Origin: Trebouxia sp. TZW2008
Taxonomy: Eukaryota; Chlorophyta; Trebouxiophyceae; Trebouxiales; Trebouxiaceae
Assembly (NCBI GenBank): GCA_002118135.1
Contig: BDIU01000147.1
Coordinates: forward strand, 1 to 64,000
Direction of reading: 5' to 3'
Length of the DNA: 64,000 nucleotides
Below, piece by piece: positions 8,800 to 64,000 of the stretch. The notes beneath the pieces are model-generated. The model did not search any database and was not told where the DNA came from. It worked only from the letters and a program-made list of their open reading frames with translations. How positions within the stretch are numbered: the stretch's first letter is position 1; each line of letters starts with the position of its first letter. The translations under genes were made by a program, and so were the position numbers.

Positions 8800-11700
8800 A
8801 TGCAGCGTGCAGCACTTGTTACTACTTCTCTTGTCGCTAGACCAGGCATTGCCCGCTCTACATTCTACAGAAGCATGCAGACCACGATAGGTGAGTTTCC
8901 TGCATCTCGCATTGCTTCAGCCTTAGAGACTGCTTGTACGTTCAAGGTCACAGTGATCATAGAAGTGGACGCCTGTCTCGACCCGTTGTGCTCGATGCAG
9001 GACGCATCTCGGCACCACAAGGGGTTTCTCTCCGCAACTTCAACGGACCTAGACACGCGCCCAAGGCGTGTCCTGCCCGTGCCGGCCTCATCAGACACTG
9101 CCCAAGGCATCTCTCACCTGCGGCTACTCCATCATTCAGCTCGTCGTTCCTTGGCTCGACCTCTGTGATCAGCAGTGGGCTTCACGCACAGACAACGTTG
9201 CTTGGTCAGAACAGTGTATCGAGGTAAGCTGTCATGACGGTGTTTCACAGCAGGTATGCTTGTGCATCACGCTTTCTAAGCAAAGGCGGCAGGGCAGTTC
9301 CATGCGCAGTCTGCAATATTGTGCGATGTGTCCAGCTTGTTGCATTGGTCCTATTGTCATTGCAGTGTTGCTGCAGCGAGATTGCATGAATTGGTCAGTT
9401 CACGCCTTATGAACTGTGTGACAGGAGTAGGCGGAGCCTGGCAACCAGAGCGCAAGCAGCAGGCGGCAAGCGAATCAGCCAGAATGAGTTCACAGAAAAG
9501 GCATGGCAGAGCATTGTGGCTGCCCCTGACATAGCACAAAATGCCAGCCAGCAGATTGTGGACACAGAGCACTTGCTGAAAGTGTTGCTAGAGCAGCCAA
9601 ATGGGTTGGCTAGGCGCATTGTGTCCAAGGCTGGCAGCAATCCAACACTGCTTCTGGAGAGAACAGACCAGTACATACGCCAGCAGCCCCGTGTGACTGG
9701 CGACTCGTCTCAGGTGAGCTCCTTGCAGCATTTAGGCACAACTTGCAGCATTCAGTCAGACCTTGCGGCACTTAGGCACTAGTGACCTGTTGCACTCAGC
9801 CACATGCAGTGACCTGTTGCATTCAGGCACATGCAGTGACCTCTCAGGCGCTGCTTGTTGCAGCGTTTGGGCACAACTTGCAGCGTTCAGGACTAGTGAC
9901 CTGTTGAATCCAGGCACATGCAGTGACCTCTCAGGTGCTGCCTGTCGCAGCGTAAAGGCACAACTTGCAGCATTCAGGCTCATGCAGTGACCTGTTGCAT
10001 TCAGGCACTAATGACCTGTTGCATTCAGGCACATGCAGTGAGCTGTTGATTTCAGACACATGCCATGATTTGTTGCATTTGGGCACACGCAGTGACCTCG
10101 CATGTCGTGCTTCTTGCAGTCATGCAGTGACTTGTTGCATCCAGGCAGATGCAGTGAGCTCTCAGGTGCCGCCTGTCGCAGTGTAAAGGCACAACTTGTA
10201 GCATACAGCCTCATGCAGTGACCTGTTGCAGTCAGGCACATGCAGTGACCTGTTGCATTCAGGCACATGCGGTGAGCTGTTCAGTCCATACACTTGCCGT
10301 GATTTGTTGCATTCAGGCACATACAGTGACCTGCTGGTCATCATCAAGCGTGCCTGCGTGTGCGCATCTGACAGGATTGTGTGCTAGTCTGCATCACAGG
10401 CAGATTTGGGCTTCATCTGGCCCTCAGCAGAACATGTTGTGTGCTGCCGTTTCCTGATCAGGCATAACTTGCTACTGAAGTATAAAGTGCAATGTGCAGT
10501 TGGTGTGCTGCATCCAAGACACACAGTTGTCTGTTTGCAACTCGTGGGTCGTTTGTCACAGAGACCAGTAGCAATTGTGTTGATAGTCGTCATCATGTTG
10601 ATGCAGGTGCTGGGGCGCAATCTTGAAGCCCTTGTGAGCAGGGCTCAAGAGATCAAGGCAGAATGGAAGGATGAATATGTGTCAGTAGAGCACATGCTGC
10701 TGGCCTTCCTAGATGATGCCAAGTTTGGCACAAAGCTGCTGAAAGACGCCAATCTGGACAAGGCTAAGCTAGATGCAGCTATCAAGGAGATCAGAGGCAG
10801 CAACAGGGTCACTGATCAGGTACTTTGCAGCCCTCCTTTTGTCAGGTCATCTCGCGTCAAACTTCTGGCAGCCTGGTAGTTGGCATGCTGCATCTCGCCA
10901 TCCCAGAATTGCTGAATAGTATACGCCTTGCTGCCTTCCTTCCGTCATGTTGTCACAAGTGGACGTCGGGTAGCTTGTTGATTAGCATGCAGTGTTTCAT
11001 GATCCCAAAATCGACTTGCAGGTACATGACTGCACCACAGATGGAAGCTGTGTTGCATATCTCTCGTGCATTGTGTTTTGACAAGGACTGTGGCAGCATT
11101 GCTGTTAGCATGTGATGAACTGACACTGTATGCCATGCTGGAGTGTCAGTCATCTTGTTTCTGTCTCCTTTTGGCCAACGACCACAATTCACCACCATTC
11201 ATATGTGCAGGATCCAGAGGGCAAGTATGAGGCCCTGTCCAAGTATGCAAGGGACCTAACAGCAGCCGCCAGGGACGGCAAACTAGACCCTGTCATTGGG
11301 CGTGACGATGAGATCAGGCGTGCAATTCAGATCCTGTCTCGTAGGACCAAGAACAACCCTGTACTGATTGGTGAGCCTGGAGTGGGCAAGACCGCTGTTG
11401 CTGAGGGGCTAGCACAGAGAATTGTCACTGGAGATGTACCTTCAGCGCTACAGGTCAGACTACGACTACTCATCTTACAATGAGGACACCACAATAACTC
11501 CAAGGCCATTCAAACATGACGACATAGACTTTTCTTCTTGCGCTTCTCTATTGCCCACATGTGTTGCTGGAGTCAGCTTTAATGGGATGTTCATCTGCTG
11601 AATATGTGTTAGAACTGCAGGTCAGACTGCAAGCGCTCGCCTCTGTTGTGGGTTTGCCTGGCATGTCTGTCTGCTGCATTTGCTTTAGCACTGCAGGTCA

Positions 11701-14700
11701 AGACTGCAAATGCCTGTCACTTTGCGATTGTCAGCTGCACTCGCAGGTTTGTTTGCTGCACGTGCTTAGCACTGCAGGTCACCCTGCAATTGCTCCTCTT
11801 GGCTGCTGCTGTCAGCTTTACTGGCAGGTATGCCTGCTGCATGACTTGTGCAGATGCAAGCCAGCTTTACTAGCATGCATGTTTGCTGCATGTGGCATAC
11901 AGATGCAGTTTGGCATGGCCTTGCAGCATCTGCTCATGCAAAGTGCGAGGCAGGGCGTCAGGGTGTCTTTGCTGTGAGGCTTGCTCTGTCTTGAGGCTCT
12001 GCTCCAAAGTCTGCCAGTCTGGCAGCCTGTGAAGCAGGCGTCACAACGGGCAGGAGTCTCAGCAAACACTGCCTGAGCGCTGTGCAGAAGCTCATCATCT
12101 TCAGTTGAACAACTCCTGTGGCAAATGCTTCACGTCGGTGTTTCATATCGGTGGTTCATATCAGTGGTCAATATCAGGTTGAACAGTTCACAATGGTAGA
12201 AGCATCTGCTGTTGCTGCTGCTCACAGACAACCGTCAAATCGCCTTTGCTGTGAGTCCTTCCTTGTCATGTCGCTTTTTCAAAAGCCATGGCAGGGCAGG
12301 ACCCTCAGCAAAGTCTCGCTGGGCGCTGTGCAGAAGGGGCAAATTTGCAGTGCACCAGTTGGTTGATTGAAGAACTTGTATCACTGGTCAATGCTTGTTT
12401 GCATGATTCATAACAGTTGTCCGCGTCTACAGCACCAACGGCTGCCATGATCGGTGCTACAGACAAGGTAGCGCAGAGACTGAGTGCAGTGTCAGCCTGC
12501 GGCACACAGCACTTTATCAACGCACGCTCATATTTAATGTTATGCATCATTGTGCAACATTTGGGTGTAACATTATTCCTGTGTTGTGATCTATGAACTG
12601 TGCTGCAGGACCGTACTCTGATGTCGCTGGACCTAGGAGCCCTCATAGCAGGCGCCAAGTACAGGGGAGAGTTTGAGGATCGTCTGAAGGCTGTCATCAA
12701 GGAGGTTACAGCCAGCAATGGGCGCATTGTGCTGTTCATTGATGAGATTCACACTGTTGTTGGGGCAGGCGCTACTTCAGGCTCAATGGATGCAGGTATG
12801 CTTTCATTGCAGCCGTTTCTTAGTTGTATCCAAAAGCAAACCTTTCCCACTGTCTATTGATATGCTCAGTAATGGCTGCATTGTGCTGTTCGTTGATGAG
12901 ATCGTTAATGAGAATCACTGTTGTTGGGGCAGGCGTATCTACAGGCTCCATAAATGCAGGTATGCTTTTGAGCACCTGCCCCTGCGCCAGCAGGGCATCT
13001 GGTCTATGCATGGCCTTCCACCCTGTCTGATAACATGCTCAGCAATGGCTGCATTGAGCTGTCCTTGACAGGACCCACACTATTGTGGGGGGCAGATGCC
13101 ACTCCAAGCTCAGTGGATGCAGGTGTGCTTTTGCAGTATGTTTACTTTTAACCACCTTTTCATCTGTTTAGCAACATGTTCAGCAGTGGGACAGCAGGTG
13201 CTGTCCATTGGTGACATATCATGGGATGTGGATGCAGTAGCCACACCATAGGTCTCAAGGGCAAATCTCGTACAGTCCACTTGTGCACAATGAAGACCCT
13301 CATGGCCTGTTGGTTTGCTGCAGGCAATCGGTTGAAGCCCATGCTGGGACGAGGCCAGCTGCGGTGTATTGGCGCCACCACTGTGGATGAGTACTGCAAG
13401 TACATAGAGAAGGACCCGGCCTTGGAGCGCCGCTTTTGATGCACACAATCATGGACCCCACCAACTGTATGTTTACTGCAGGCAACTTGTTGAAGCCCAT
13501 GCTGGGACGGGGCGAGCTGCGGTGTATTGGCGCCACTACTCTGGATGAGTACTGCAAATACATACAGAAGGACTCCGCCCTGGAACAGCGCTTTCGATGC
13601 ATACAATCATGACCATCACCAAATGTATGTTTACTGCAGGCAACTTGTTGAAGCCCATGCTGGGGCGAGGTGAGCTGCGGTGTATTGGCGCCACCACTCT
13701 GGATGAGTACCGCAAGTATATAGAGAAGGACCCGGCCCTGGAGCGCCGCTTCCAGCAGGTGTACGTGGACCAGCCCACTGTCACCTCCACCATTGCCATC
13801 CTGAGAGGCCTAAGGGAAAGGTACAGGCAGCATTTCTGCAATCACCTTATCCTTTAAACTGCCCTTCCTCAAGGCAGCCGTATGGAGTCGCATCTTTGTT
13901 GTGCCTTTTTCCTGTATCCCAAATCAACATTGCGTTTTATGGATCAGGGCACCTTAATCCATCCCGGTGAGCGCATCACCGATGCGCACTCAACAAAGTG
14001 CATATCAGATGTACAGTCAGAAGCCTCGCCTGTCTCTATCACCAATTAGTAGGCTGTGCATATGGCTGCAGATATGAGCTGCATCGTGAAGTGCAAATTA
14101 ATGACACAGCCTTAGTAAGGCAGCCATCACGTGAGACACGCACATTGCTGATCGTTCTCACTGCAACAACAAATTTGCTCTCGGCTGCAGATACGAGCTG
14201 CATTATGGAGTGCACATCAATGTCACAGCTCTAGTAGAGGCGGGCCATTATGTCAGACCGCTACATTGCTGATTGCTGGCAGTGTAACAACAGGCTGTGC
14301 ATGTGGCTGCAGGTATGAGCTGCACCACGGAGTGCGCATTAATGACACCGCCTTGGTTGAGGCAGCCATCATGTCAGATAGGTACATTGCAGACCGCTTT
14401 CTGCCAGACAAGGCCATTGACCTCATCGACGAGGCTGCTGCCAAGCTCAAGATGGAGATCACCTCCAAGCCTCTCCACCTTGATGAAATAGACCGCAAGG
14501 TAGGGCAGCGTCTTGGCTGTTTGAAGCTTGCTCAGTGCTGAAAGTGCTTTGGGTCTGATTGCAGGCTGTGGGAGCTTGGGGATGTTTGGTGCTTAGCCTT
14601 GCTCAGTGATTGGAGTGTGTTTGGTCTGTTGACATGTGTACAAGCATCTGCATCTCGACAAAAATGCCTGCATGCTTTGCTGCTGGCTGTCTCGTCTTGC

Positions 14701-17700
14701 AGCAACACAGCAGTCCTCTAGGGCATTTGCATTGAGGCTCCCTGTGAGAACGTACCAGCATGCTGCTTGCTGCAGTCTCATGTTGCCACCTACTATTGAG
14801 CATGCCAAATGTTTGTGCCCAGATTGTGTCAGCATTTCACAGGGCACTTTGTCTGGCTGGAGACAGTAGACAGTATGTAGTGAGTGTATGTTGCGCTGCA
14901 GATTCTGCAACTAGAGATGGAGCGGCTGTCATTAGCCAAGGCTGTGTCAGATCGCGCCTCCAAGCAGCGCCTGCAGGCCCTGGATAGCCAGCTCAAAAAG
15001 CTCAAGAATGAACAGGTCAGTCCCCCTCCGCCTACCCAAACCTGTGGTGCACCCTACAATTGCAGTGCTGCAAGACAGAGCGCTGTGCTGTTTTGTAGCA
15101 CTACTGGTTTGAGAGAGCACATTGCTCTCTTATTCACCAGGAGCCATGCATTCCAATGTGCTTTGCTTTGTGCAGTGGCTTGCTGCAGTCAATCAGTCGG
15201 TCTTGTCATGCCAGGCTGCAAGCACGGTTTGCATGCAAAAAAGCCGCGTGTGTTGCAATCAGTTCACAGTCCTGCATTAAGTTGCACATGAGCTTCCCCG
15301 GCACTGCAGCTGCTGTTTAAGATTGGCTTTACTATATGATCAATTTGAAATCTGGTTGCAGGAAGACCTGACAAAGCAGTGGCGTGGTGAGAAGGATGAT
15401 ATGGAGCGGCTGCAAAGCGTGAAGGAGGAGATTGATCGGGTCAACCTGGAGATCCAGGGGGCTGAGCGTGACTATGATTTGAACAGGGCTGCTGAGCTCA
15501 AGTACGGCACCCTGTTGGACCTGCAGAAGCAGCTCAAGGATGCTGAAGTGGCCCTTGAACATCAGGTTTGTTGCAAGTGTTGCTGATGCTGCTGCTGCAC
15601 AAGAGCAACATGGCAAGTATGTAGGCATTGGATGCTGAGACTGCTGTTGTCCAGCAACGCTGCTGCTGCTGCTGCACAAAAGGGGCATGGCAACCAGCTG
15701 TCAAAGTGGCCCTTGAATGACATTTTTGCTGCGCCTTTTGTGACGTCATAAAGCAACTAGCTGTTGGTGTTGGTGTCATGCAAAAGCTTTGCAAACAGCA
15801 CTCTGCCCTACTGATGCTCGCTATAGTTCTGTCTCAAATTGTGCTCTGGCTGCAGACATCAGGTGCTTCCAGAATGCTGAGGGAAGAAGTGACAGAGTCA
15901 GATGTAGCAGAGATCATCAGCAAATGGACCGGCATTCCTGTAGAGTCTTTGGCCGCCACAGAGCGTGAAAAGCTGCTGAACTTGGCTGATGAGCTACGCA
16001 AGCGAGTCATCAACCAAGACGAAGCAGTTGAGGCAGTTGCTGATGCCATCCAGCGGTCTAGGGCTGGCATGTCTGACCCTAACCGCCCCATAGCCAGCTT
16101 CATGTTCCTTGGCCCAACAGGTGTTGGCAAGACAGAGCTGGCCAAGGCCTTGGCGAACTACTTGTTCAACACAGATGTGAGTGCAACGCACATCTAGCAT
16201 AGCAATGTCGCCCAGCCACCTGTTGCATGTCCACTTGGCTAGAAAGTGCTTGAATGTGCTCACTCCTGGCATACTTCACCTGCTCAAGGCACGCTGCTTT
16301 GTGATGTTGCATTGGCACCCTGTGCTGCTGTGCTTCCACACATTCTCACATACAACTGGGCTTTAGCTGCACACAGCCAAAGTCTTGCTTTGCAGTGCTC
16401 TGTGTCTGCATACATACCAAAGGCATATGATGCCTCAAAAAGTGAGGGCGCATGCTGCCTGTGAGACTCCTCGTGTGCAAAGCTGACTGTGCTAAGCTGT
16501 TGCGTGCAGGACGCGATGGTCAGGATAGACATGTCAGAGTACATGGAGAAGCATGCCGTGAGCCGGCTGGTGGGGGCGCCTCCAGGCTATGTGGGCTACG
16601 AGGAGGGGGGCCAGCTCACTGAGCATGTCAGGTTAGCCCAGCTCACCACAATCAGCATCTCTTTCCCTGTGCTACCAATACGGAGTATGTTATCATTGCT
16701 TGCTGCAGGCAATGCCATCCTGCTGGTTTTGTGTGCCTTGCTTTAGAACGCCTAGAGTATGGTTTGTATATGCTCAATGCAAGTATTATGCTGTCATGAT
16801 CCTTGTGCAATTTCCTTCAAAATTGCTGAGTTTGATTTCTGGTTTTGCTGCAAGCAGTGTTCCTATGCTGTCATTCTGTTTGACCGGGTGGAGGAGGCCC
16901 ACACAGATGTGTTTGACATGCTGCTCATTCCATTTCCATGCTGTGACATAGGCACACCAGACAAGCACAATCACAGCACAGATGTGCCTTGCCTAGACTT
17001 CTGGGTAACGCATGTCATGAGAATACTGAGTGTGGTTTTTTGCGCTGCAGGCGGCGGCCCTATGCAGTCATCCTGTTTGACGAGGTGGAGAAGGCCCACG
17101 CAGACGTGTTCAACATCCTGCTACAGATCCTAGACGATGGTCATGTCACAGACAGCCAAGGCCGTAAGGTCTCCTTCAAGAACGCCATCCTAATCATGAC
17201 CTCCAACATGGGCTCCCAGTACATTGTGGATGGCATGCAGAGAGACCCTGAAGGTGTCAGGGAAATGGTCATGGGACAGGTCAGCTCTCCCGCCTTTGTT
17301 TTATGTCTTTGTTGCTCTGTCACGGCAGTTCATCTTGTCGGCTGCTGTAGCCATGTACATTTGTCATTTGAAGAAGTGTAATCCGCTTGGAGCATGACGT
17401 TGTTTGACCCATGCTCTGCAAGATGTGCTAGGCACCAAATGCATCTGCTCTTTCTCTTGTCTGGTTTACAGCATCTTGTGCTGTCCTATGGGTTGCATGT
17501 GGTCATGTAGAGGCATTTGAGGTCCAGTATGCTGCCATGTTGTCTTCACATTGTCTGTCAGTCTGTCTCCTGAATGTGCAGCAATGTTGCAACAGGGCTA
17601 ATACTAGCGCTCCTCCTGTCTGCCAAGCTGTCTTTTATTTTCATAGCACATGTTACGGCAAGCCTACTCATCTGATGTGCTTGACTGCAGGTCCGCTCCC

Positions 17701-18670
17701 ACTTCAGGCCAGAGTTTGTCAACAGAATTGATGAGTTCACAGTGTTCAACCCGCTCGCCAGGGCAGACATCAAGCGCATCGTGAAGCTGCAAGCCAAGCG
17801 TGTTGAGGAGCGCTTGACAGCCAAGAAGATGAAGATGAGGCTGACAGACAATGCCATGGAGTTCCTTGCGGTGCGTTTTGCTGTTTTGCAATGACAAGGC
17901 TCACACACGCTCTTGCTGTGTGTTTTTCTGCTGTGTGGTATTATAAGGCTTGTGTGCGCCTCTGCTTTGTGCTTGAAAACACTTGTGTGGCATCCCTGTT
18001 TGTCAAGCAGGTTGTGCTTCTTTGTATTGCTCTGTCATTGATGAAGGTGAGGCTGACAGACAATGCCATGGAGGTCCTTGCGGTGCGTTCTTGCTTTTTG
18101 CAATGACAAGGCTCGTATGCGCTTTTGCTGTGTGCCCTTCTGCTGTGTGGTATCAGAAGGCTTGTGTGCGCCTCTGCTTTGTGCTTGGAAAGACTTGTGA
18201 TATGTACATGGTCAATCAAGCAGGTTGCGATTCTTTGTGTTGCCACGTCATTGATGTGAGCAGGCTCATCATGGTTTGAGAGCTGTTACTGGAGGTTGTC
18301 ACATTTCTCCTGGACACCTTTGTTATTGCTGGTGAATGTCGCTTGTTACTGGAGGCTATTGTGGTTATTGGATAGCGCAATTGAAATGTCTGTGCACCTC
18401 ATTCTGCAGGAGAAGGGCTATGACCCAGTGTATGGTGCTAGACCTGTCAAGAGGGCTGTTCAGCGTGAGCTGGAAACAGCCCTAGCTAAGGCACTGTTGA
18501 GGGGTGACTTTGGGGAGGATGATACTGTAGTTGTAGACGCTCCTGGAGCTGCAAAATCAGATGGGCTAGTGCTGACAAGGGAGGGTGGGTACAGAAGTAA
18601 TGGGGCATCAGCGTCATTCTCTTCCATGGATGACCCATCACCTACTTTGCCCATAGAAGTGCAGCGTTGA
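8800..18670 (+). CDS. CLPB: ClpB/Hsp100 disaggregase, organelle-targeted, 15 exons
   Basis: AAA+ hexameric disaggregase that, with Hsp70, resolubilises aggregated proteins; 1014 aa. Exons: 8800-8890, 9001-9223, 9425-9713, 10607-10819, 11211-11453, 12609-12795, 13640-13820, 14313-14499, 14902-15015, 15362-15565, 15856-16176, 16510-16631, 17051-17279, 17691-17870, 18410-18670. All phases close. Residues 1 to about 115 are a Ser/Arg-rich, acid-poor leader typical of chloroplast or mitochondrial import. Then: Clp N-domain (exons 3-4), NBD1 with Walker A GEPGVGKT and pore loop KYRG, Walker B LFIDEIHT, coiled M-domain (exons 9-10), NBD2 with GPTGVGKT, pore loop GYVGYEEGG and Walker [11 protein letters not shown], and the small C domain. 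Sequence resembles the plastid/mitochondrial ClpB3/ClpB4 group rather than cytosolic Hsp101; which organelle is not decidable. Introns carry many degraded copies of adjacent exon edges. Heat-shock elements precede it. Confidence 0.95.
9720..10345. repeat. Minisatellite in ClpB intron 3
   Basis: Irregular tandem units based on GTGACCTGTTGCATTCAGGCACATGCA and variants, about 30 bp, with longer interspersed blocks containing CTCAGGTGCTGCCTGTCGCAG. The block immediately after the exon 3 donor (CTCAG-GTGAGC) resembles several unit boundaries, so it may have grown from the exon 3 edge. Confidence 0.75.
11570..11885. repeat. Repeats in ClpB intron 5 seeded from the exon 5 donor
   Basis: Four or more units of roughly 60-75 bp each contain CTGCAGGTCAGACTGCAA-like cores and TGTTTGCTGCATG segments. 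The core resembles the genuine exon 5 end and donor (GCTACAG-GTCAGACTA) at 11447-11461, consistent with repeated duplication of that splice boundary. Confidence 0.5.
12870..13124 (+). pseudogene. Two degenerate copies of ClpB exon 6 3' end
   Basis: The exon 6 end around the Walker B codons (about 12713-12795, donor at 12796) recurs with donors at 12960 and 13123, spacing 164 and 163 bp. Copy 1 keeps GGCTGCATTGTGCTGTTC and GATGAGAT but has an inserted piece where the histidine codon should be; copy 2 is more decayed. Both retain GCAG-GT at the exon/intron edge. Neither can replace the exon because upstream coding is absent. Confidence 0.85.
13324..13599 (+). pseudogene. Two truncated copies of ClpB exon 7 start
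   Basis: Acceptor plus about 115 bp of exon 7 start are repeated at 13324 and 13482 ahead of the genuine exon at 13640; the period is exactly 158 bp twice. Both copies still translate to nearly the normal peptide ([18 protein letters not shown]) but run into TGA just after the arginine-finger region, and have no matching donor in phase. They are recent, still well conserved pseudo-exons with working-looking acceptors. Confidence 0.9.
14072..14290 (+). pseudogene. Two degraded copies of ClpB exon 8 start
   Basis: Copies begin after GGCTGCAG at 14072 and 14191; the genuine exon begins at 14313 (spacings 119 and 122 bp). Each keeps a YELH-like start and NDTALV-like codons, then decays. Confidence 0.85.
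16850..16945 (+). pseudogene. Degraded copy of ClpB exon 13 start
   Basis: The block encoding YAVILFD-VE-AH-DVF is repeated here, about 198 bp before the real exon at 17051. Its acceptor is altered (CAAGCAG) and the Walker B acidic pair is changed to D-R, so it could not replace the exon. Confidence 0.85.
18030..18110 (+). pseudogene. Copy of ClpB exon 14 end with its donor
   Basis: The end of exon 14 ([10 protein letters not shown] then GTGCGTT) at 17841-17876 recurs with a donor at 18083, 212 bp downstream. The following intron text (TTTTGCAATGACAAGGCTC) is repeated too. Confidence 0.85.
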
Positions 18671-18674
18671 TGTG

Positions 18675-18795
18675 CCAAATTAGATTGCTTAGTTTCTGAC
18701 AAGGGAGGTGGATTCAGACGTGACAGTGCATCAGCTTTGTTTTCTTCCATGGACGACCCATCACCTACACTGCCCATAGAAGTTCAGCATTGTTT
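18675..18795 (+). pseudogene. Copy of the ClpB terminal exon end in the 3' flank
   Basis: Sequence from the ACAAGGGAGG block through TTCCATGGATGACCCATCACC to GCCCATAGAAGTGCAGC of the last exon is repeated downstream of the TGA at 18668-18670. Edge duplication therefore also affects the 3' UTR side and is not limited to introns. Confidence 0.8.
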
Positions 18796-19803: not shown

Positions 19804-19864
19804 GCTTTTAAGGCAGCCCCCACAGGCTTTGTTTCATTGAGCAAAGTGCTGCTGCCGCTGATGT
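19804..19864 (-). pseudogene. Copy of the acetamidase terminal exon 3' part
   Basis: The stretch CTTTGTTTCATTGAGCAAAGTGCTGCTGCC here repeats CATAGTTTCATTCAGCAGAGTGCTGCTGCC of the genuine last exon (19899-19930), placed just after the stop codon on the minus strand. Confidence 0.7.
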
Positions 19865-22800
19865 TCAACCTGCTGTTGCAACAGAGGCAGGCACCAAAGG
19901 CATAGTTTCATTCAGCAGAGTGCTGCTGCCACTGATAGTAACTGGGACATATGGGGTACTGGTGTCATTGACATCGATGAATGGCCATTTGGGGATGACT
20001 GCATGCACGCCCCAGTTGCCTGCAACACCAAGCCATGTAATGCTGCATGGCAGCAAAAGCTTGACCCTCTATCGCATCTATACATGCGGAACATGAAGGC
20101 ATCTGGGTGTCAATTACTATCAGAGCTACATCAGTACACCTCCGTGGGGGAAAAAAGACGCAACTAATTGGGTTTGAACATGTGAGAATAATGGAATGGC
20201 AGCTTGCTCTGCAATTGAGTGCGAACCCCAGCCTGAGGGCTTGGCATCAAGATGTGAACTGCTTCAAACAGAGGCGATGCTCATAGACGTGATACCTGTG
20301 CTCATTCGGTCAAGACAGACTTGTGCAAGCACAACAGTTAAGAGCGCGAAGAATACAGGAACCTGCTGTCGGCAATCTCAACGCACACAGCTGCCATTGA
20401 TACTAAGGTTGTTGCCAAACCCTGCTTTGCATATTGCTGCATGGTCACACATGGTTTGTGCCAACATGTTGACCTACCTAATGGCGTGCATGCAAACATA
20501 TTTGATGGATTACAATGTGGTTGAAACAATGGACATTATGATCACTGTGGTATTCAGCAAGTTTGGCTTACCGTCCACTACTTGGGTGACCCCAAAGTCT
20601 ACAACAGTGGTGATGGCTGTGATGGCCTGGTCTTCTGTCAGGTTGTAGGTACGCATGACAAAGTCTCTGGTGTTGTTGTATGCTACAGTAAAAGCTGGGT
20701 CCAGACTAGACATCTGGTAGATCTGGGTGCGATCAGCCAAAGTCAAGTAGTCCTGTAATAACAGGCAACAACCTTGGACATCAATTTGACATCTGGAATA
20801 TCTGAGCGCATTCATCTAACATCAAATAGTCTTCCAACAGCAAGCAGCAAACTAAACATCTGGTTCAGCTTGAGGCAATCAGTCAAAGTCGAACAGCCCT
20901 GAAACAGCAGGCAACAAACTTCATAGTTGGCTTTATGTGCTGTGACAGCAGGCATCAGATTCTGGATTATTGCATGGCTTGTGTGTTGTAACAGGAGGCA
21001 GCAAGCTTCATGTGACTGCATGGCTGCAATGGAGCAGCAGACTTGGGTTTTACTGGCGGATGTGACTGGTGTTGGACTTGTACGGTGTGATGCAGTCACA
21101 GAGGTGACAAAAAGCTGAGATTCAGGGTTTTCTCACTGGCACATGCAACTGGTAGCACATGCACAGAACATGATATAGCCCATGAGAAGACAGAGAGGTA
21201 AAGGGTGATGTGCATTGCCTTTCAGCTGTACTACTGACAAGTGGATGCCAAAAGGGCCCTGTTATAATGCTCTGCAGCATAGAGTTCTGTACTTTGTACA
21301 AAATACCCTGTACCGTTTGCTGCACGGCCTTTAAGCATAGCATCTGTACTTGCTGGCTGAGCACCTGGCTGTGCAGCAGCAGCCAATATTAGGGCTCTTT
21401 CTACTCTTTCAGGATCTCTTCTTTGAGATGTTTACGTGGATAAGCTTTTCAGGACCAAAAAAAAGGGTGTGAAAACCAGAAGTAACCAAGAAACAGGTAA
21501 GAAAGCTATGCTCAAGGAGAACTTTCCTCTTTCTCTGAGAGAGGTTTTGGGAATCATACCTTGAGAGTGTATCCATGCACCACATACTCATTGGCGTTTT
21601 CCAGCAAAGGGAAATCTAGGTTTTGGAGCGTGGGTGGTAAAGTGGCGTTCTTGCGCACTGTGATTCTGAATTTGCCGTTGATATTGGTCTCTATAGCAGT
21701 GCCTGCAAGCCACACAGCCTTGAGGACAACATGTAAACTTTGTCTTGCAACAGCACACATCACTGCTGTCAATTTACAGTTATGATCTTTGGGCTTGGCG
21801 AGTCATGTTTTTACTAGGCAGTCAGTTTTGGATGCCAAAAAAAGCTTGTGCACAGAATTGCACAAAACAGTTAGGTAAATGGAAGCTGTCTTGGCTTGTG
21901 TCAGTACACATCATTGCTGTCAATGAAGTTGCAGTTGCAGTCTTGGAGCTTTGGCAGTCACGTGCATGTGGCATTTACTTTTGTGTGGCCCCAACAGTCG
22001 TTGTCTGCGTACATGAATGCACAGAATAATTAGGCAAGCAAACAATGTTAGCTTACCATCAAATTCAGAGTCGCCTTGGGCAGTGTGCGCATCTCCCATA
22101 GACAGCAATGCTCCTTCAACAGCCACAGGGTAATACATTGTTGCCCCAATGCCCATGCGCCTGTCATCAACATTTCCACCTGCACAAATGGCATAGACTC
22201 AGCTGGAACAGCACATTTTTGGAAGCATTTCTGGCTTTGTTTGTGTCATTGATATGCGTAGACCCACCTCTGATGTATCATTCCAAATGTGACAGACATA
22301 GCCAGAGCAGGCGGAGTGTACAGTCGACGCTCATGCAAGTCCCAGCACATGCACATGGCACCAGCATCATAGATGCACATTAAGCTGGCTGAAGGGACCG
22401 CAGCTGAGGCAAGGTACACAGCAGTGTTGCAAGGGACAGCTGACCTCCCATCATGGGCACCAAGAGTCACTGTGACATTGGTGGCTTTGTTTTCACACCC
22501 ATGACACACAAATGCAGCTGAGACAACACAGACAGCGGAGTTAACACGTCAACTGTTCTTTATGCAACTGTGCAAAGCTAATGTGAGAGATGATGGCAGA
22601 AACGAAGGATCGCTGACCTCCCATCATGGGCACCACAGAGTCAATAGTCACATTGGTGGCTTGTGCTAGGCCCATGCTCCCCACATGGAAGTTGATGGGC
22701 ACCTTGAACTTGTGATCTCAACTTGACACTGAAAGCTTCGACAAACAGACACAATCAAGACCAGGCATACAGCAGGGATGAAGGGGAGTGCTGACCTCCC

Positions 22801-25800
22801 ATCATGGGTACCACAGAGTCAATGGTGACATTGGTGGCTTGTGCTAGGCCCATGCTGCCCACGTGGAAGTTGATGGGCACCTTGAACTTTCCCCTGATGC
22901 TGTAGTCCTCTGTTCCAGTGGGATGCTGCGTGATCACACCCTGCACAGGAACCCAATCGACACCAAGTCAGCAAACTCAAGGAAGCAATGCTGGGCTGAG
23001 GACTGCCTGTAAAGCATGACAAAGTGAAGCAGGCATGCATGCAGGCAGGCAGACAGGCATGGCTTCATGCTGCAGTCCTCTGTGCTTGTGGGGTGCTGAG
23101 TGATGCCACATGCACAGGAACCCATTTGACAATCAAACAGCAACCTGAAGGAGACAATACTGCGACACAGACTTGCTGTGGAAGCAGAAATTTGTTCCGA
23201 GCAAGAAAGATGTTCTTGAGGCAATTTCAAAGACACATGCTGTGGTCTGATGCTGTAGTCCTTCGTGCCCGTCGTAACAATGAATAAGCAGCCTCTGAGC
23301 AGAATGACGTTGTTGAATTTCAAGGGCCAATCCCTTGCAACATAAGTTGACACGATGTGCAACAGATTCCGGACCGCAGTCAGTCAGAGCTGACAGGACC
23401 ATTTGATACAACGTGCAGTAGGCAGGAGAGTGGACAAGGAGCGTACGGGGTAGTAGAGCCCCTCCCAATGCTGAGTGTTGTCATCAAGACATGGCACTTT
23501 CAACATGCCTGCATCAAAGTCGAGCTCATGTTTGACAGGACTCTCAAATTTAAAACTCATGAGAAGTATATGAGTGCACATGAATGGCATGGGCAGCAGC
23601 AGAATGTTGAGCACACACCGGGCAAAATGACTACCATCAGTTTGAAATAGGCTGAAAGTAGACGCACATGCTGTGTCAAATGCAGAAGCCTTGGCGACCA
23701 GTCACGTACAGAACTCAAGTGCATTGTCCTGGAAGTCTGAGCATGATTGCTTTTGGCAAGCAATCATGTACAGCAAATGTGTCTCAAATTCACACTTCTG
23801 AAGGTCTGGGCGCTGTTGTTGAAGGCAGGGTAGATGAGGTTCTGTGCCAGCTCAGGCATGGCCGCAGAGAAGGCTGTGCAGTTGCTGACTGGACCATCAT
23901 ACGAGTTGGGCGACTGGGGTTGCCCATATGACCCATACCTGCCACAACACTGCCTTGTCAGACGACAGTGATGGCATACACTTTCTGGCAAGGCATTAGA
24001 GGTTTGTGGCCCACGTCCTGTCTTGCCACAGCATGACTGTAACAGGAACATTATTGTCAGATGCTAGTTTGGCTAATGTCAACTGCTGACTGGCCCATCA
24101 TGCGAGTTGGGCGGCTGGGTTTGCCCGTATGACTCATACCTGCTACAGCACTGCCATGTCAGACATCATGAAAGCAATCATCAGTTACACATCTGAGCAC
24201 AAGGGCTAAGTGAGTATGGGCCAAGTCACGTCTTGGCAGGCTGAGCTGTTTAGAGCACTATGTCAAGGTTCAGAGGTTGTTTGTCAAGCGCTGAGAAGTC
24301 CACTGCAGTTGCTGATTGCAACTGCCTGAGCTGTTGGCAAAGCCAGACAGTACTGTGTTCTGCTACGAAATCTTGACATGAGGTATGATGGTTTTGGTCA
24401 GTCATCATGACGACCTCTTGTATTCCAGCCGCAGGCCCAATGGGCAGGCAGGAGCTCCTGCTCTCTCACAGGACTCTTCTTTTTGTGACAAAAGAAGGAG
24501 ATACATGTGCGCAATGGCCCAAGCCAGCAATGAACTTTACGTCACCCAATCAAGCCAGGTTGGATTTGCACAGAATACTCACTTGAATTGGTAGTCAGGT
24601 ACAGCAACATAGCTCTTGCCGCTTGCTGACTTGATGAGCTCATAGATAGTCACCACTTCCCGCTTGATACCGTCCAAGAAACCAGCACGGAACTGGTAAC
24701 CCCAAGAGGCAGCAGCGTTGGAACCATACGTGCGATTGTTGTTGCCCGGATTAGGTCGTGGCTCCAAGTCAAGAATGTCCACCTGTTCAAGCAATGACTT
24801 GTCTGTTTGCAGCAATGTACAACCTTATTGCTAGACTGCACAGATGCTAGACTGCACGGATGCTAGACGGACCAGCATGAGCTGTACTTTATCTTTAGCT
24901 GTAATTCGCTGATGGCACACACAGCTGGCAATGGCATTTGGGCAATTGTGTGTCCGATGCATTGCAAACAAACTGCACTATTGAGCTTGAAACAAGTGGT
25001 GAAACACATATCTTCTGCAAACTCAGACGCTTGCGAGTACAGAAAATTTGGAACTATACTGACACCTGAACACTGAAAACTGATAGCAACCCATACATGT
25101 TCTCTAAGCTCAAAGTGCTTTCAATCACAGGCAGTATTGGGCCATCCTTCACTGTACTTGAGGCATGTCATTGTCATCATCACAAGGCATCAACAAGCTT
25201 GAATGTTGAAACAAAGAACCTAATTGTAAACCCTAAATAACCCTAAACACGAACACTAAACACTAATGACCCAAACCCTAAACCCTAAACCCTACATAAC
25301 CCTAAACAAAGAATGTGAATGTACCTGAAGAACATCTCCAGGCTCTGCACCACACACATAGATGGGACCTGCAATGCAGGCACATGTCAGGCAATAAGCT
25401 TTCAGCTTGTTCCACTTCAATATACAACAAGGCAAACTGCAGAGCACAAGCTGCAATACATGTGGCAGGACTTCGGCGGGCACAACAATCGTTGATGAGC
25501 GCTGCATGGACAGCAGACCTGAGAGCACATGGACGCCATCACCCTTGCCAGTGGCGCCTCGCCATGATACTGATGGCCCAGACTTAGTCCAATTGTAGAT
25601 GCTCTCGATTCCTGGGTCACCTCTGACAATCTTGTCATAGTCATCTCCACCATGCTGTGTGCACTGCAATGCACAGGAAGCCGACGACACTGAATCAGAG
25701 ACAGGACAATGTGCATATGCTTTGTGACACAACCAATCTCTTTGATTGCTTGCATCTGCTGACAGTGGCGGTGCAAAGGGGGTAATTGCGTACAACACAC

Positions 25801-26519
25801 TGTGACACTTGCAACACCAAAAAGTGAGCTTACCATCTCTACGTTGACTGTGTCTCCAGAGTTGATGACCAAATTGGGCGTTGAGCCAGCGTAGTAATAG
25901 CCCCTACAAAGCGCATTACAACAGCAGATGAGCAGTTGCTGATGCCAGCTTGGGTCCACTTGCTTGAGTCACTGATCAGCCCTCACACAGTGCTTACCAG
26001 TGTACTGTCGAAGCGTTGGCCATCAGGGTCAATGTTGACGGCACGGCAGCGCTTGACGCCGAGCATGTTGCTGGAGGGCTCTGCAATGGTCCAGATAAGG
26101 GGTCGTGCGCGTACCGTGGTCCAGCGCCTCTGCAACAGCATGACTGTGCTAAGATCGCTGCATGCACGGTCTCTTGGGGATACGCGACATGACGCACTCA
26201 TTGCTCAAAGAACCGCTGTGTTGCTTATCGGCAGTACTACAAGATTCTGGTGGGTTGCAATGGCTGTCGAATACATACGAGACAACGCCGACCAAACAAT
26301 GGCTATGCAACCGCCGGTCAAGGTGAAGATCAGAAGAGCAAGTTGAGAAAGCCGTCAGGTTGACTCGTCCGGACAAGTGAATTCAGCATATATTTACCTT
26401 GACGCCGTTGTGTTTGCGCTTTGCGCTTGAGCAAAGTAAGCAGTGTCGGTACTGCAAGCCAACACCATGATCAGCGCGGCTACAAATCGCAGCGCTGCGT
26501 GACCCTTCCTTGAGTCCAT
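19865..26519 (-). CDS. Secreted acetamidase/formamidase family protein, 12 exons
   Basis: FmdA/AmdA-family amidohydrolase, expected to hydrolyse formamide or short amides to ammonia plus acid; 534 aa. Exons in transcript order: 26519-26398, 26129-25998, 25903-25834, 25663-25519, 25368-25325, 24782-24583, 23938-23794, 22940-22796, 22179-22057, 21702-21560, 20752-20572, 20019-19865. Residues 1-36 form a signal peptide (RFVAALIMVLACSTDTAYF). Family landmarks follow: TVHWGYYYAGSTPNLVINSG, the GGDDYD and GDPGIES block, GPIYVCGAEPGDVLQV, YGSNAAASWGYQFR, VPINFHVGSMG, ATMYYPVAVEGALLSMGD and the catalytic-region AHTAQGDSE, then FGVTQVVDG and the terminal NWGVHAVIP. Total coding length divides by three, and all junctions fit GT-AG, but the exon 7 donor (GTGAAT at 23793) is weak. 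Export suggests nitrogen scavenging outside the cell or in a vacuole; substrate is not predictable. Confidence 0.9.
22441..22740 (-). pseudogene. Two copies of acetamidase exon 8 3' end
   Basis: The exon end encoding VDSVVPMMGG with its donor (real donor at 22795-22794) recurs near 22616 and near 22446. The nearer copy covers about 95 bp of exon and keeps LAQATNVTID; the farther one is short and decayed. Confidence 0.85.
23060..23295 (-). pseudogene. Two copies of acetamidase exon 8 5' end
   Basis: The exon start encoding QHPTGTEDYSIR with its acceptor (real first base 22940) recurs near 23110 and near 23270 on the plus-strand scale. Text such as TGTAGTCCT(C/T) and GGAACCCA(A/T)T in the flanking intron is repeated too. 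Both edges of one exon are thus triplicated. Confidence 0.75.
24070..24150 (-). pseudogene. Copy of acetamidase exon 7 start
   Basis: Plus-strand GACTGGCCCATCATGCGAGT at 24089 repeats GACTGGACCATCATACGAGT of the real exon, including the acceptor region CATACCTGC(T/C)ACA, about 190 bp upstream in transcript order. Confidence 0.8.
25228..25307. repeat. Interstitial plant-type telomere repeat (CCCTAAA)n
   Basis: Perfect and one-off CCCTAAA heptamers occur in a degenerate block inside intron 5 of the acetamidase gene, including three perfect tandem copies near 25272-25293 (AAACCCTAAACCCTAAACCC). CCCTAAA/TTTAGGG is the telomere unit of land plants and many green algae. Confidence 0.85.
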
Positions 26520-27101
26520 GCTGACGTTAAAATCAGCTTGCGGATGACTCTCAGCGGCTCCGAAAGGACTGTCTCTTTGGCATTGCACGGCAAACATTTG
26601 TGACCCTCGACGACATAGCAGGAATTCAAAATTCACAGAAGAAGAGCAGTGACGCCCAGGCCATGTCAGCTAGGTTTACATAACATTAGTCACAACACGT
26701 ACATTTTTGTGCCTGCTAGCCGGCAACTCAGCTCCAACTTGTGGTCGACCTGACGTGGGAGCAACGACAGGCCCTTTTGCCGTGGCTGCATGTATCCTGT
26801 CCTACCTATGGGCAATGACCACTTTGCAGACTGAAAGTACCAAATGTAGTCTGAACACATTTTACTGACTCAACATGGTCGATCTACGTATTCAATATTG
26901 CTGGGATCAATTGGCAATTTCATTTTGTGCCTATTGAGTAGCTGACCTAAAATGGCAAGACATCTTTAGGGATGAGTCACCCAGATATGAGATTTCTTCT
27001 GCAACACCAGCCCATACCGGAGTCATACAAGTCTCGACAAACAGAGCATATTATTAACTTTAAAGAAGACAGCTTCAGGGACAAGACTATCTCAGTCGAC
27101 A
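26520..27101. other. Intergenic between two minus-strand genes
   Basis: Promoter region of the acetamidase gene and 3' flank of the ATP12 gene. No further gene or clear motif is seen. Confidence 0.5.
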
Positions 27102-35942: not shown

Positions 35943-36168
35943 TGTGACTCACACAAGTATACAAGTGCACTGCACGTGGAGTGCCTAGACAATCATGCTG
36001 GTAATGCTCAAAAGCAAGCGCGGCACTACCTCATGCAAGGAGCAGATGCGCCGCCTGAGATTGCCGACGATGAAGGTAATCTGGACAAAACCTGTATGTG
36101 CGTTAGTACAGCTTTGCATTGATGCAACGCATATGTGTTTGCATGCTTGTAATTTAGACTGTGCATGC

Positions 36169-36234
<66 letters not shown>

Positions 36235-43035: not shown

Positions 43036-59081
<16,046 letters not shown>

Positions 59082-59976: not shown

Positions 59977-62900
59977 CTACTTTTGAACGGCATTACCAGC
60001 TGACATGGCAATTTCTTGACCTGAAGTCAACATGTTTTGCAGGACTTGTTTGTGCTCATCAAGCCATTTGTACACATGGCTGGTTGACACCACCAGCTGA
60101 CTTGCAACTGCAGGATCCTTGCTCTTGTCTTGAGTGCCAGTTGCCAGGTCTCGCACCTCTTGTGCTGGCAGCTTGAACAGCCTCAAGAGAGCTGTGTGCA
60201 ATGGCTTTGGGTTGCGCTGACCATCCTGACCGCCTGTACAGCCAAACTGCTGATGCTATAGTGGAAGTCATGATCAGTGCGTTTGTAGTGTATACAGACT
60301 ACATGTGTATGTAGACTACATGTTGCACACTCACGTGTAGTCTGTATACATGTGTGTGTACAACATGTATACAGACTGGCTTGCTGAAAGACAGCTACTT
60401 GGTGACGACTGTCGGTACCTAGCAAGACCTTTGAGCCCAATCAGCCTGCGATCTTATAGATAGATAGACAGACACACAAGCGCAACGCAAAGTGACCCTC
60501 TATCAAGCGAGCAACACCGCTTGCCTAGAGTGAATGCCGAGTTGCTGATGCTTGAGGCAGCATATGCAAGCAATGGCAAGCAGGACTTGCCTGGGCAAAC
60601 GCATGAGGCAGCATATGCAAGCACAAGCCAGCAGGACTTGCCTACGCTGAATGTGATGCTATCAACCCCAATGACTACTGCTGTGTCCTGCAGCCCCACT
60701 AACTGTGCAGCCCAGCTCAGCATCAGCACAAAGCAGCTTGCCACAAGTGCGCAAGCATTGCAAGTTGCGGCAGTTATGGCACCTGTGTTTGCTCCAAAGC
60801 TGCTGACGCATGAGGCAGCACATGCAAGCACAGGCGAGCAGGACTTGCCTAGGCTGAATGCGACGCTGTCACCCTGAACGACTGCTGCTGCATCCTGCAG
60901 CCCTACCAACTGTGCAGCCCAGCTCAGCACCACCACAATGCCCAAATCCACTGACAGCCCAGTCAGCTCAACCATATCCACTGCGCCAATCTCAAACCCC
61001 CCTGCAGGGGCAGTCTCCAAACCCCCGGCAATCTCAAACCCCCCTGCAGTCTTGCCATCTTTGCTGTTGGCCACAGCACTGCTACCACCATGCATGGTGT
61101 CACGACCTCCATTCCCTGTCATGCTTGCGTTGCTGCTAGCACGCATGCTGCCATGCCCACCACTGCCTGCCATGTCTGCAGGGTCTGTGCCTGCTTTCAG
61201 ACTTGCTACCATACTTGTGGGATCTGTCCCTGGTCTCAGACTTTCTGCCGTGTTTGTGTAATCTGTGCTTGGTTCTGGGCTTGCTGCCATACTTGTGGGA
61301 GGTGTGCTTGGTTTTGGGCTTGCTGTCATGCGGGTTGGATCTGTGCTTGATTTTGGGCTTGCTGTCATGTGTGTATGGTCTGTTCTTGACTGCAGGCCTG
61401 CTGGTGCTATGGGACTATGGCTGAAGATGGAAGGCTTGGCGGGTAGCACGTAAAAATGGATGGCTTCTGCTTGGTGTAGCTGCACCAGAAGCCACACTGT
61501 TGCTGCCATGCCAAAGAGGCTCAGAGCTTTCTCGGTCAGGCTGACATAGTCCTGTAAGCGTAGCTTGATGGATGGTACAGCCTGCAAAGAGGTCATGTCT
61601 TAGTCACAACTCATATTGCAGTCAGGATGACATGGTCTTGTAGGCGTAGCTTGACGAATGGTACAGAATGCAGATTGTGAAGGGTGGGCAGAACTCATAT
61701 CTCTGTCAGGCTGACATATTCCTGTAGGCGTAGCTTGTGGGCGGTATAGCCTGCAAAGGATAGACAGCGTTCATTTTGCAGTCAGGCTGACAAGTCCTGT
61801 AGGCACAGCTTGGTAGATGGTACAGCCTGCAGGATAGACAAATTTGGTCATACGCGTTTCTCAAAGCTTGAGCATTGCAACAGCTGGGAGGATTCTCTGA
61901 AATTGCAGGTGCGTATGTGGCAATCTGCCTGATTGAACAGGCATCTTTTGTGTGCGCAACCACCATATGCACAGAGATGTGTGGCACGCATGGGTATTGT
62001 CTGAAAAGGCCTGAGCAAGCGTCCAGCCAGTGCATCAGAGCGGCTACTCTCGTCTGTTATTGACCATTATACACCACTTTCATAAAAAGCTCTCCAACAT
62101 CATGCAGTTGTCATTCAGGCTTAAGGCACCTGACCAAGGCAAGCTTCACCAGATCTGGCCTTCAAAACCTCACCTGGTTGTGCCAATTTGCATGCCACTG
62201 CGTTTCATGACAGTGACAAAGTGCAAGATGCTGAGATCAGCTTGCTTGATGGACGCTCTTGATCATGTGTCCGTGTGCACATCATTGTGGCTGGTGACTG
62301 TGCCATTGTTCCAAGTCGCAGGGATTGCATGCTACTATGGTTGATCAGTGCGGCATTGCGCAAGATGCTGAAATGCATGCCGCTGTGTTTGATGACAGTG
62401 ACAAAGTGCAGGATGTTGGGGTACACTTACTTGGTGGATGTTCCTGATCAGTTGTAGTGCTGTCCAGACTTGGCCTTCATCCTTGAGCGCATGAACCAGA
62501 TGAGCACAGATCTGCTGGTCAGGCGTCTGGGAGTGTGCCAGCATGCCCTACATCAATGGGTAAGAATTTCTTGCTCAGTATAACATTGGCCATTCCAAGT
62601 CTCAACATCAGATCATCCTGAAGTGCGAGGCAAAGCAGCTCACTATCATCAGAGCACTTCTGTTCAGCATCAGGATAAGTCAAGTCAAGAACATTACAAC
62701 GCTTAGCACGCCACAACAGTGATGCATGGGGGCATCGTTTAGAACTAGGAACATCATCCCACATGTTGGTTGTTAGGTAAAGCCTCCTGCAGGTGACATT
62801 GCTCATTTTGGACAATTTGGGACAGCTCTGCATATGTATGTATAGAGATCAGCAGCTCACCTGTATGACATGAATTCCTGCATCCAGCTGGTTGCTTGAC

Positions 62901-63052
62901 AGCAGCTGTGCCACCAGGTGATTGCAGCTGCCATCCTCCACAGGCCGGCCTTGACCCCTCATGTCGCTCATCACAGTGAAGCTGGCCTGCACTTGTCCAC
63001 CTTCCAGCAATGCTGCTAGAACAGTGCCATACGCATTGGTGTCTGGCTGCAC
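59977..63052 (-). CDS. PPR-like repeat protein, 3' part, at least four exons
   Basis: Fragmentary helical-repeat protein resembling pentatricopeptide repeat (PPR) proteins, which bind organellar RNA. Exons seen: 63052-62861, 62547-62431, 61581 to roughly 60873, and terminal 60246-59977 (TAG). Exon A reads VQPDTNAYGTVLAALLEGGQ then a second repeat-like unit with PVEDGSCNHLVAQLLSSNQL; exon B reads TPDQQICA-LV-ALKDEGQVW-ALQLI. These have the PD-x-AY-x-LL-AL-GQV rhythm of PPRs. Exon C begins AVPSIKLRLQDYVSLTEKAL, has a hydrophobic helix (FGMAATVWLLVQL) and then low-complexity 13-residue repeats. The terminal exon (SHVYKWLDEHKQVLQNML) is coding-like but its junction with exon C does not have a settled phase, so it could belong to another gene. 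The 5' end lies beyond 63052 and maybe outside the window. Confidence 0.55.
60290..60349. repeat. Imperfect hairpin, 18-bp arms
   Basis: GTATACAGACTACATGTG at 60290-60307 pairs with CACGTGTAGTCTGTATAC at 60332-60349 with one mismatch (loop 24 bases). A further direct copy of ATGTATACAGACT follows at about 60365. Possible miniature inverted element or cruciform; no target-site duplication was recognised. Confidence 0.7.
60545..60905 (-). repeat. Duplicated 3' portion of the PPR gene exon C
   Basis: GGCAGCATATGCAAGC and AGGACTTGCCT occur at about 60557, 60607 and 60817, and CCTGCAGCCC-ACTAA/CCAACTGTGCAGCCCAGCTCAGCA at about 60689 and 60894. The minus frame remains open through these copies, giving the protein-like repeat LSWAAQLVGLQD twice, but they are better explained as exon-edge and intron echoes. 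Confidence 0.7.
61170..61383 (-). repeat. 39-bp coding repeats, five or more 13-residue units
   Basis: Units TDHTHMTASPKSS, TDPTRMTASPKPS, TPPTSMAASPEPS, TDYTNTAESLRPG and TDPTSMVASLKAG follow one another in one open frame. A disordered Ser/Thr/Pro linker or an in-frame minisatellite. Confidence 0.8.
61600..61850 (-). pseudogene. Three copies of PPR gene exon C start
   Basis: The exon C start (AVPSIKLRLQDYVSLTEK, first base 61581) recurs with similar text near 61665, 61752 and 61830: TGTACCAT or TATACCGC, CAAGCTACGCCTACA and TGTCAGCCTGAC. Two of them keep GCAG-GCTGTACC-like acceptors; all run into stops. Confidence 0.85.
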
Positions 63053-64000
63053 CTACAAAGTGCAGTCTTGGTTCAGGTGATTGCAGCTAGCATCCTCAAC
63101 AGGTCTGCCTTGACCCTTCATGTCGCTCATTACACTGCTTAGCTGGCCTGCACTTGTCCACCTTCCAGCAGTGCTGTTGAAACAATGCAGCAATGTCTGG
63201 CTGCAACTGCAAAGCGCAGTCTGGGTTCAGGTGATTGCAGCTAGCATCCTCAACAGGTCCGCCTTGACCCCTCATGTCACTCATTACACTGTGGCTGGCC
63301 TGCACTTGTCCACCTTCCTGCAGTGCTGTTAGAACAATGCAGCAATGTGTGGCTGCAACTGCGAAGCGCACTCATGGTTCAGATGATTACAGCAAGCACC
63401 CTGTGAAAACAGGTGTTACCCGCGTAGGTCTCTCATCACACTGAAGCTGGCCTGCACTTTCCCAGTAGTGCTGCTGGAACAGTGGCATATGCAGTGGTGT
63501 CTGGCTGCAGCTGCAATGGGGTTGCACGTGTCATACCTACTCTATCAGCAAACAATCAGCAAGGACCTCCGGGCAGGACAGCCTACCTTTGCCCTTCTCT
63601 GCGTGATTCTGGCTGCCTGACAACACCGTACCACCGTACCAAGCAAGCATGCAGATGCCGTATTCAATGACGGAAGGCGCAGTTGTGCACAATGCCTCAC
63701 CTTGAGTACAAATCTGAGTCAACAGCTGAGCTTATGCGGCGTTGCTGCCAACAGAGGGTTCAAGTTCAAATGTACGTGTCAAAGTGCACACATGGGGTGC
63801 CTGGCTTTGACAGCTAGCCTGGGAGACTCTGACGGTATGCTGCGACCGCATAGCCCCTCTCAGAACCTCAAGCAGAGCATTGAAGCACTGCTGCATGCAG
63901 AGGATACACAATGCAGCATCATCTTGCAAAGCTGAAATGATTGGAGATCTGACTTTGCCTGGCGGTCTTCTGAACTTGACAGCATCACAACAACAACAAT
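63053..64000 (-). other. Copies of PPR exon A and right edge of window
   Basis: Three decayed copies of exon A (GGQVQAS-TVMSDMRGQG-PVED-SCNHL) lie at about 63070-63215, 63228-63370 and 63381-63525, steps near 155-160 bp. At 63591-63690 the minus strand reads VIEYGICMLAWYGG and ends at GTAGGC; it may be the previous exon. The last 260 bp have open frames on both strands without a recognisable motif. Confidence 0.6.

Follow-up and report, generated by a model that had tools for sequence, protein, structure and literature searches.

Long introns are usually ascribed to transposons, and small tandem duplications were reportedly derived from break repair by Schiml et al. in 2016. In a potato RdRp gene, a tandem genomic duplication across an intron-exon boundary made a new intron (PMC4974935), introns are also described as gained by tandem duplication of coding pieces (PMC2891723), and small tandem duplications are a known outcome of break repair (PMC8355091), each according to the available part of the source. 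A search of the literature, judged by titles and covering few subscription journals, returned no description of intronic copies of exon edges on a genome scale, and the word "tandem" is absent from the available part of the Asterochloris genome paper (PMC6652019). Here, such copies are described in the window, i.e., the whole stretch of DNA that was analysed (64,000 nucleotides of Trebouxia sp. TZW2008), which lies on contig C143 of the assembly searched (68.5 Mb, 527 contigs). Direct copies that span an exon boundary, as proposed in a first-pass annotation, are present in the adjacent intron at 25 of 100 splice edges in the genes for ClpB, acetamidase, L-galactose dehydrogenase (L-GalDH), and GCN2. 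They are probably the product of past local tandem duplication across the genome, with selection on coding sequence acting as a filter.

Gene models and direct repeats in the window

Genes were modelled with a spliced aligner written for this analysis, with Trebouxia proteins or the chain of a solved structure as references. None of the four models has a stop in its reading frame, and the modelled introns have GT-AG ends, apart from a few with GC-AG:

8800-18664, + strand: ClpB gene, 15 exons, spliced alignment with a Trebouxia sp. C0005 protein (P0001)
20570-26408, - strand: acetamidase gene, 12 exons modelled, spliced alignment with P0241, a further 3' exon near 19880-20026
30500-33145, + strand: L-GalDH gene, 5 exons, a 244-residue chain fragment as reference
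43231-59081, - strand: GCN2 gene, 24 exons (two doubtful), spliced alignment with a Trebouxia sp. C0006 protein (P0121), with a kinase match

ClpB has its best protein match in Trebouxia sp. C0005 (94%), and GCN2 and acetamidase have theirs in Trebouxia sp. C0006. Nearly the full reference is covered in the ClpB and GCN2 models; the acetamidase model omits about the last 45 residues, the exon for which (19880-20026) lies beyond the aligned stretch. The two doubtful GCN2 exons (53135-53164 and 53225-53349) are inside an array of 171-bp units and were dropped from the splice-edge counts, which come from 50 introns and 100 edges in the four genes. Pfam named none of the five open reading frames (ORFs) tried in the presumed ATP12 (two) and AUX1-like (three) stretches, and it named nothing for ORF 60457-61599. 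Tandem repeats are present in the ATP12 and AUX1-like stretches and at 62915-63516. A CHRD domain is found in ORF 4545-5003, and the window as a whole is depleted in CpG (observed/expected = 0.41).

Self-comparison of the window identified 82 pairs of direct repeats separated by less than 3 kb, none with a wider separation, and 5 inverted pairs. Within 700 bp there were 78 pairs, compared to 0 in each of three dinucleotide-shuffled windows (run with slightly different settings). Only two distant relations were detected, namely an inverted pair 15 kb apart (28561-28676 and 43766-43883; 119 columns, 76% identical) and a match between 28991-29058 and 58304-58371. The copies at the edges of modelled exons are as follows:

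12713-13131, + strand: tail of ClpB exon 6 (donor 12796) and two downstream copies, offsets 154 and 327
13287-13751, + strand: head of ClpB exon 7 (start 13640) and two upstream copies, period 158, contiguous tandem
14051-14396, + strand: head of ClpB exon 8 and two upstream copies, period about 120
16840-17122, + strand: head of ClpB exon 13 and one upstream copy, offset 193, the AG of the copy being AA
17828-18256, + strand: tail of ClpB exon 14 and one downstream copy, contiguous, unit 212
18550-18792, + strand: last exon of ClpB, with a copy of its tail and stop codon in the 3' flank, unit 123
20702-20921, - strand: head of acetamidase exon 20570-20752 and an upstream copy, offset 146
22412-22889, - strand: tail of acetamidase exon 22796-22940 and two downstream copies
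22897-23162, - strand: head of the same acetamidase exon and an upstream copy, offset 170
23883-24164, - strand: head of acetamidase exon 23796-23938 and an upstream copy, offset 201
31874-32674, + strand: array in L-GalDH, unit about 174 bp, with the head of exon 32558-32708 at its end
43578-48006, - strand: copies at seven splice edges of GCN2 (43889, 44791, 46179, 46354, 47173, 47376, 47980)
49831-50334, - strand: GCN2 exon 50013-50152, flanked by copies of its tail and its head, one on each side, offset 179 for each
51836-52029, - strand: head of GCN2 exon 51734-51890 and an upstream copy, offset 133
52553-54010, - strand: array in GCN2, about seven units of 171 bp consisting of an exon head and its intron flank
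55446-58146, - strand: copies at four more edges of GCN2 (55593, 55723, 57154, 58049)

In ClpB, copies thus occur at the edges of exons 6, 7, 8, 13, and 14, a further one includes the stop codon of exon 15, and those of the exon 7 head were also detected as partial protein matches. The nearer tail copy of acetamidase exon 22796-22940 is 95% identical over 94 exon bases. Several other features of these genes were observed. The copy of the ClpB coding end and stop in the 3' flank (18550-18792) retains a protein match and an open frame of 53 aa, and intron 3 of ClpB contains, at 9708-10336, a minisatellite with units of about 27 bp within longer units of 87 and 231 bp. A repeat with a 74-bp offset (19811-19936) adjoins the 3' exon of acetamidase (19880-20026), and inverted matches to the GCN2 array unit are found at 53753-53854, beside the direct array (52556-53854).

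Geometry, decay, and distribution of the copies

The geometry of the repeats was counted for all repeat sides with 20 or more bases in an exon, with the GCN2 array left out (n = 36). A splice edge is touched by 35 of these sides and a stop codon by the other one; none is internal to an exon, and none is on the wrong side under the rule, formulated in the first-pass annotation, that copies of exon starts lie upstream and copies of exon ends downstream. The 24 edges with copies outside the GCN2 array comprise 14 exon heads and 10 exon tails, and in blastn tables no repeat outside that array includes more than one exon edge. Exon edges are duplicated far above chance and are more repeated than exon interiors: local repeats cover 27% of internal-exon bases that lie at most 15 nt from an edge, compared to 3% at 90-104 nt and 0% beyond. 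The constant periods that had been noted are likewise present (158 bp at ClpB exon 7, 171 bp in the GCN2 array). The nearest copies at the 24 edges have offsets of 98-308, with 19 of the 24 between 119 and 212. The window and 23 further nuclear loci together have 134 non-redundant pairs with offsets of at most 700, and the median of these offsets is 156 (quartiles 119 and 194). One part of the earlier description has to be given up, namely that the unit is centred on the splice boundary: the footprint is mostly exonic, and the intron overhang of exon-overlapping repeats has a median of only 18 nt (range 2-511, n = 35). Finally, 3 of the 24 nearest offsets are divisible by three, whereas 8 would be expected, as though selection had acted against splicing in frame at a spare site.

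A sequence motif at the repeat ends was considered and rejected: TGCA-type words are enriched there, yet these are the commonest words of the sample and both orientations are alike. TGCA and TGCTGC-type words exceed expectation about three- to tenfold in the genome sample. A link between the 150-180 bp mode and nucleosome size was also considered and dropped.

Introns with copies are longer (median 610 nt, n = 22) than those without (324 nt, n = 28; p = 9.6e-6). When the duplicated length, taken on each side as the distance to the farthest copy, is subtracted from the intron length, this difference is gone (294 versus 324 nt, p = 1.0). The extra length of the affected introns is therefore fully accounted for by duplicated length, and the suggestion that such copying is a mode of intron growth is upheld. 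Duplicated length amounts to 7436 of the 25098 intron bases in the four genes (1320 of the 7436 being the GCN2 array), such that duplicated exon ends and their flanks make up about 30% of intron bases there. It should be noted that the possible confounding of these comparisons by longer introns offering more room hardly applies to edges, because the number of edges per intron is fixed.

The exon parts of the copies are 73-96% identical to their exons, each with its own changes, and overall identity is 0.846 over 2702 positions. Identity at codon positions 1, 2, and 3 is 0.864, 0.910, and 0.763. These values are close to the expectation for a freely changing copy of an exon that itself changes only silently, but the inequality of positions 1 and 2 goes against the prediction for a wholly free copy. 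Similarly, 208 nonsynonymous and 207 synonymous differences were counted where simple weights predict a ratio of 1.38 for a free copy; this slight shortage of protein changes may be due to a higher transition bias (265:152). CpG sites are changed more often (54 of 155, 35%) than others (363 of 2547, 14%). The damage that had been ascribed to the copies is real as far as stops are concerned, if sparse (6 in 868 codons); the loss of splice dinucleotides turned out to be rare, with GT retained in 12 of 12 tail copies and AG in 19 of 21 head copies, including CAG in both copies at an HSP70 locus outside the window (L026). On these comparisons, the copies decay about neutrally and are probably remnants. 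Among 278 nuclear near pairs, none is more than 97.5% identical and 7 are 95-97.5% identical, and the duplication activity therefore seems to be past.

Copying of exon edges goes beyond this locus. Near pairs number 7.8 per 10 kb in 23 other nuclear loci (226,735 bases), compared to 12.2 in the window. This sample leaves out an AT-rich locus, L008 (C17:20001-30000), which has a GC content of 0.39 and 267 direct plus 267 inverted repeat pairs, unlike all other loci, and is perhaps organellar. In protein-family searches, second and shorter matches on the same strand, beside an exon but apart from the exon match, were counted by eye. Such partial matches, lying on other contigs, were seen in 7 of 67 rows for HSP70 genes, in 1 of 25 rows for HSP90 genes, and in 4 among the matches listed for kinesin genes (of 152), three of these not being clearly at an exon end; in chaperonin genes, none was clear in 80 rows. 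Where neighbouring exon matches overlapped by 20-31 profile positions (e.g., on C142, C47, C193, C144, and C170), the overlap was left uncounted because matches can run past exon ends, as in ClpB at 13627-13920, and some of these overlaps may hide further copies. Sequence was taken from parts of two HSP70 loci. In the one termed L026, two copies lie upstream of an exon, at 174 and 346 bp, of which the nearer matches over the whole unit and the farther only from the acceptor inward. The HSP70 gene on C150 holds a contiguous full-unit tandem in which the intron part is homologous too.

Origin of the copies

Local tandem duplication filtered by coding selection, the most probable explanation, would have operated as follows. 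During a past period, stretches of about 100-210 bp would have been duplicated in tandem and in place, the likely source, going by known mechanisms, being fill-in and joining repair of staggered breaks or nicks, or polymerase slippage. A duplication wholly inside an exon, or one read as coding, would break the protein and be lost. One that crosses a splice edge could survive provided that splicing takes place at the copy still attached to the remainder of the exon; its counterpart would then become intron and decay freely, and repeated events would yield one to seven copies. Under such a scheme only the outermost copy is expected to be a full exon, and old events would look like copies of exon edges because the exon side stays recognisable, one of the two copies being held constant. 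Tandem duplication with selection explains the location and side of the copies, the constant period within each set, the partial exons, and the intron lengths. The duplications are, however, read from the sequence of a single genome. Moreover, the loss of flank homology and the excess of edge-spanning sets do not follow so easily from tandem duplication, and the rather good preservation of splice dinucleotides in the copies is a point against it.

Homology of the intron flanks was assessed in an anchored test over at most 75 nt, a span that runs into the next copy in close tandems. It was significant in 17 of 33 pairs (p < 0.05 each) and not in the other 16, which when combined gave p = 0.038. 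Pairs without significant flank homology include some with exon identities of 0.95, 0.93, and 0.91 (89-95% range). Contiguous full-unit tandems with intron homology are found at ClpB exons 7, 8, and 14, in L-GalDH, and in the HSP70 gene on C150. Turnover of the intron flank by insertions and deletions would be the plainest cause of the missing homology.

The second difficulty is numerical. Edge-spanning sets outnumber intron-only sets by 26 to 5 (the 26 include one stop codon set and the GCN2 array), and random placement of units would make 44% of sets edge-spanning. At the decay rate inferred from the copies, 118 of 124 simulated intron-only pairs of the same ages were found, compared to 73 of 124 at 1.5 times and 54 of 124 at 2 times that rate; the p-value of the edge excess (25 splice edges versus 5 intron-only sets) is about 1e-5 to 4e-5, 0.002, and 0.008-0.03 at these three rates. 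Faster fading of intron-only pairs goes far as an explanation only if introns decay at about twice the inferred rate, and the exon edge itself may have been preferred on top of the coding filter.

A rather unlikely reading is that a lineage-specific process worked on segments defined by the exon, in that an exon end and its splice site, but no neighbouring intron, were copied into the adjacent intron or refreshed there. If it were true, splice edges and not random breakpoints would set the ends of the duplications, DNA duplication would be tied to exon structure, for example through transcription, R-loops, exon nucleosomes, or recombination limited to conserved exons, and exon-anchored copying or refreshing would be a distinct route of intron growth. 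In its copying form, which we consider unlikely, the exon end and splice site are duplicated by template switching or templated insertion and placed tens of bases into the intron, leaving original intron between the copies. The 16 pairs without significant flank homology and the retention of GT in all tail copies are as expected from it. Further, when spacers were compared with the corresponding position next to the copy, homology gave z <= 2 in 18 of 22 cases (z > 2 in 4), and four spacers searched genome-wide, with very common words skipped by the search, gave no second copy. Pairs at other loci that leave a spacer are also GC-rich, as exons are (0.544 versus 0.501, n = 50), and contiguous ones are not (0.501, n = 42), GC being all that differs; this agrees with an exon origin of such spaced pairs. 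Against exon-anchored copying, random templated insertion should hit exon interiors and either side of the exon, which none of the 36 repeat sides does, and flank homology is present in 17 pairs. The codon score at other loci is also not significant (z = 1.1 and z = 0.1); differences outside the window, tested for codon periodicity, likewise gave no coding signal, with low power, in that known exon pairs of the window reached only 75.9 versus 56.9 +- 10.0.

Alternatively, the copies might be old tandem ones in which gene conversion, with the intact exon as donor, renewed the exon part and the intron part drifted to saturation. The acetamidase pair at 22612-22711, in which the exon part is 95% identical and flank homology is not significant, has this appearance, and flank homology shows no relation to exon identity (Spearman -0.04, from a flawed flank test with free end gaps). 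An ongoing process of this type should, however, leave near-identical pairs, and none of the 278 exceeds 97.5%; the copies of ClpB exon 6, judged by eye, seem to differ from each other like independent lines. Gene conversion is accordingly regarded as improbable.

It is more doubtful still that the copies serve as functional alternative exon ends or cassette exons. Their splice dinucleotides are mostly kept, and in complete codons the best-preserved acetamidase copy differs at five silent sites only; the copies are nevertheless partial, and the ratio of nonsynonymous to synonymous differences allows at most slight constraint. In addition, 21 of the 24 nearest offsets are not multiples of three, and use of the copy would therefore shift the frame. 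Introner-like mobile elements or target-site duplications would account for the layout of the pairs with a spacer, in which an insertion would separate two direct copies, but with four spacers lacking a second copy in a genome-wide search that passes over very common words, and no far direct pairs in the window, they are hardly credible, and an assembly artefact is close to negligible, given copies that have decayed with changes of their own and that lie on several contigs.

With about 30% of intron bases in the four genes made up of duplicated exon ends and their flanks, intron growth by small in-place duplication becomes measurable, in that where a copy came from, its side, its size, and roughly its age can be read from the copy itself. 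Spare splice sites, many of which are retained, also offer natural material for testing how the spliceosome chooses among near-identical sites.

Relation to described systems

The first-pass annotation knew of no named process that would match the pattern. That no such process is known is not supported, since both boundary-crossing duplication in potato RdRp (PMC4974935) and duplication during break repair (PMC8355091) are known, as far as the available text of these sources goes. Introners likewise add intron sequence to a eukaryote genome, but they are described in the accessible part of the source as multi-copy mobile elements (PMC9860276), whereas every copy found here is local; many genome-wide copies were not seen, the four spacers searched being single copy and the window having no far direct pairs. 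Outside the GCN2 array, no copy is a complete exon with both splice sites and an open frame, as mutually exclusive or cassette exons would be.

There is also a resemblance to the AGGT intron gain of Rogers and Hellsten, in which tandem-duplicated pieces of a gene supply intron sequence, as is the case here. In that model, to the extent that it is set out in the parts of the sources at hand (PMC4974935, PMC2891723), the start of the intron resembles the start of the next exon and its end resembles the end of the previous exon. Such pairing of donor and acceptor of the same intron was absent from the blastn tables outside the GCN2 array, a comparison that weaker similarity would escape. With break-repair duplications, as covered by the available text (PMC8355091), the copies have in common that they are short, direct, in tandem, in place, and indifferent to the gene in which they occur; here they are about 100-210 bp and include no very young pairs, and the mechanism would be the same only by inference.

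Closest of all is the potato RdRp gene (PMC4974935). In both cases, judging from the part of that paper that was available, one boundary is crossed, the surplus copy is partly intronic, and splice signals come from the parent boundary. The potato duplication made a new intron and the event is visible in relatives, whereas in Trebouxia existing introns were lengthened, at about a quarter of the edges tested. The best reading of the Trebouxia case is that it represents boundary-crossing tandem duplication of the potato type on a large scale, with the lengthening of introns as its outcome.
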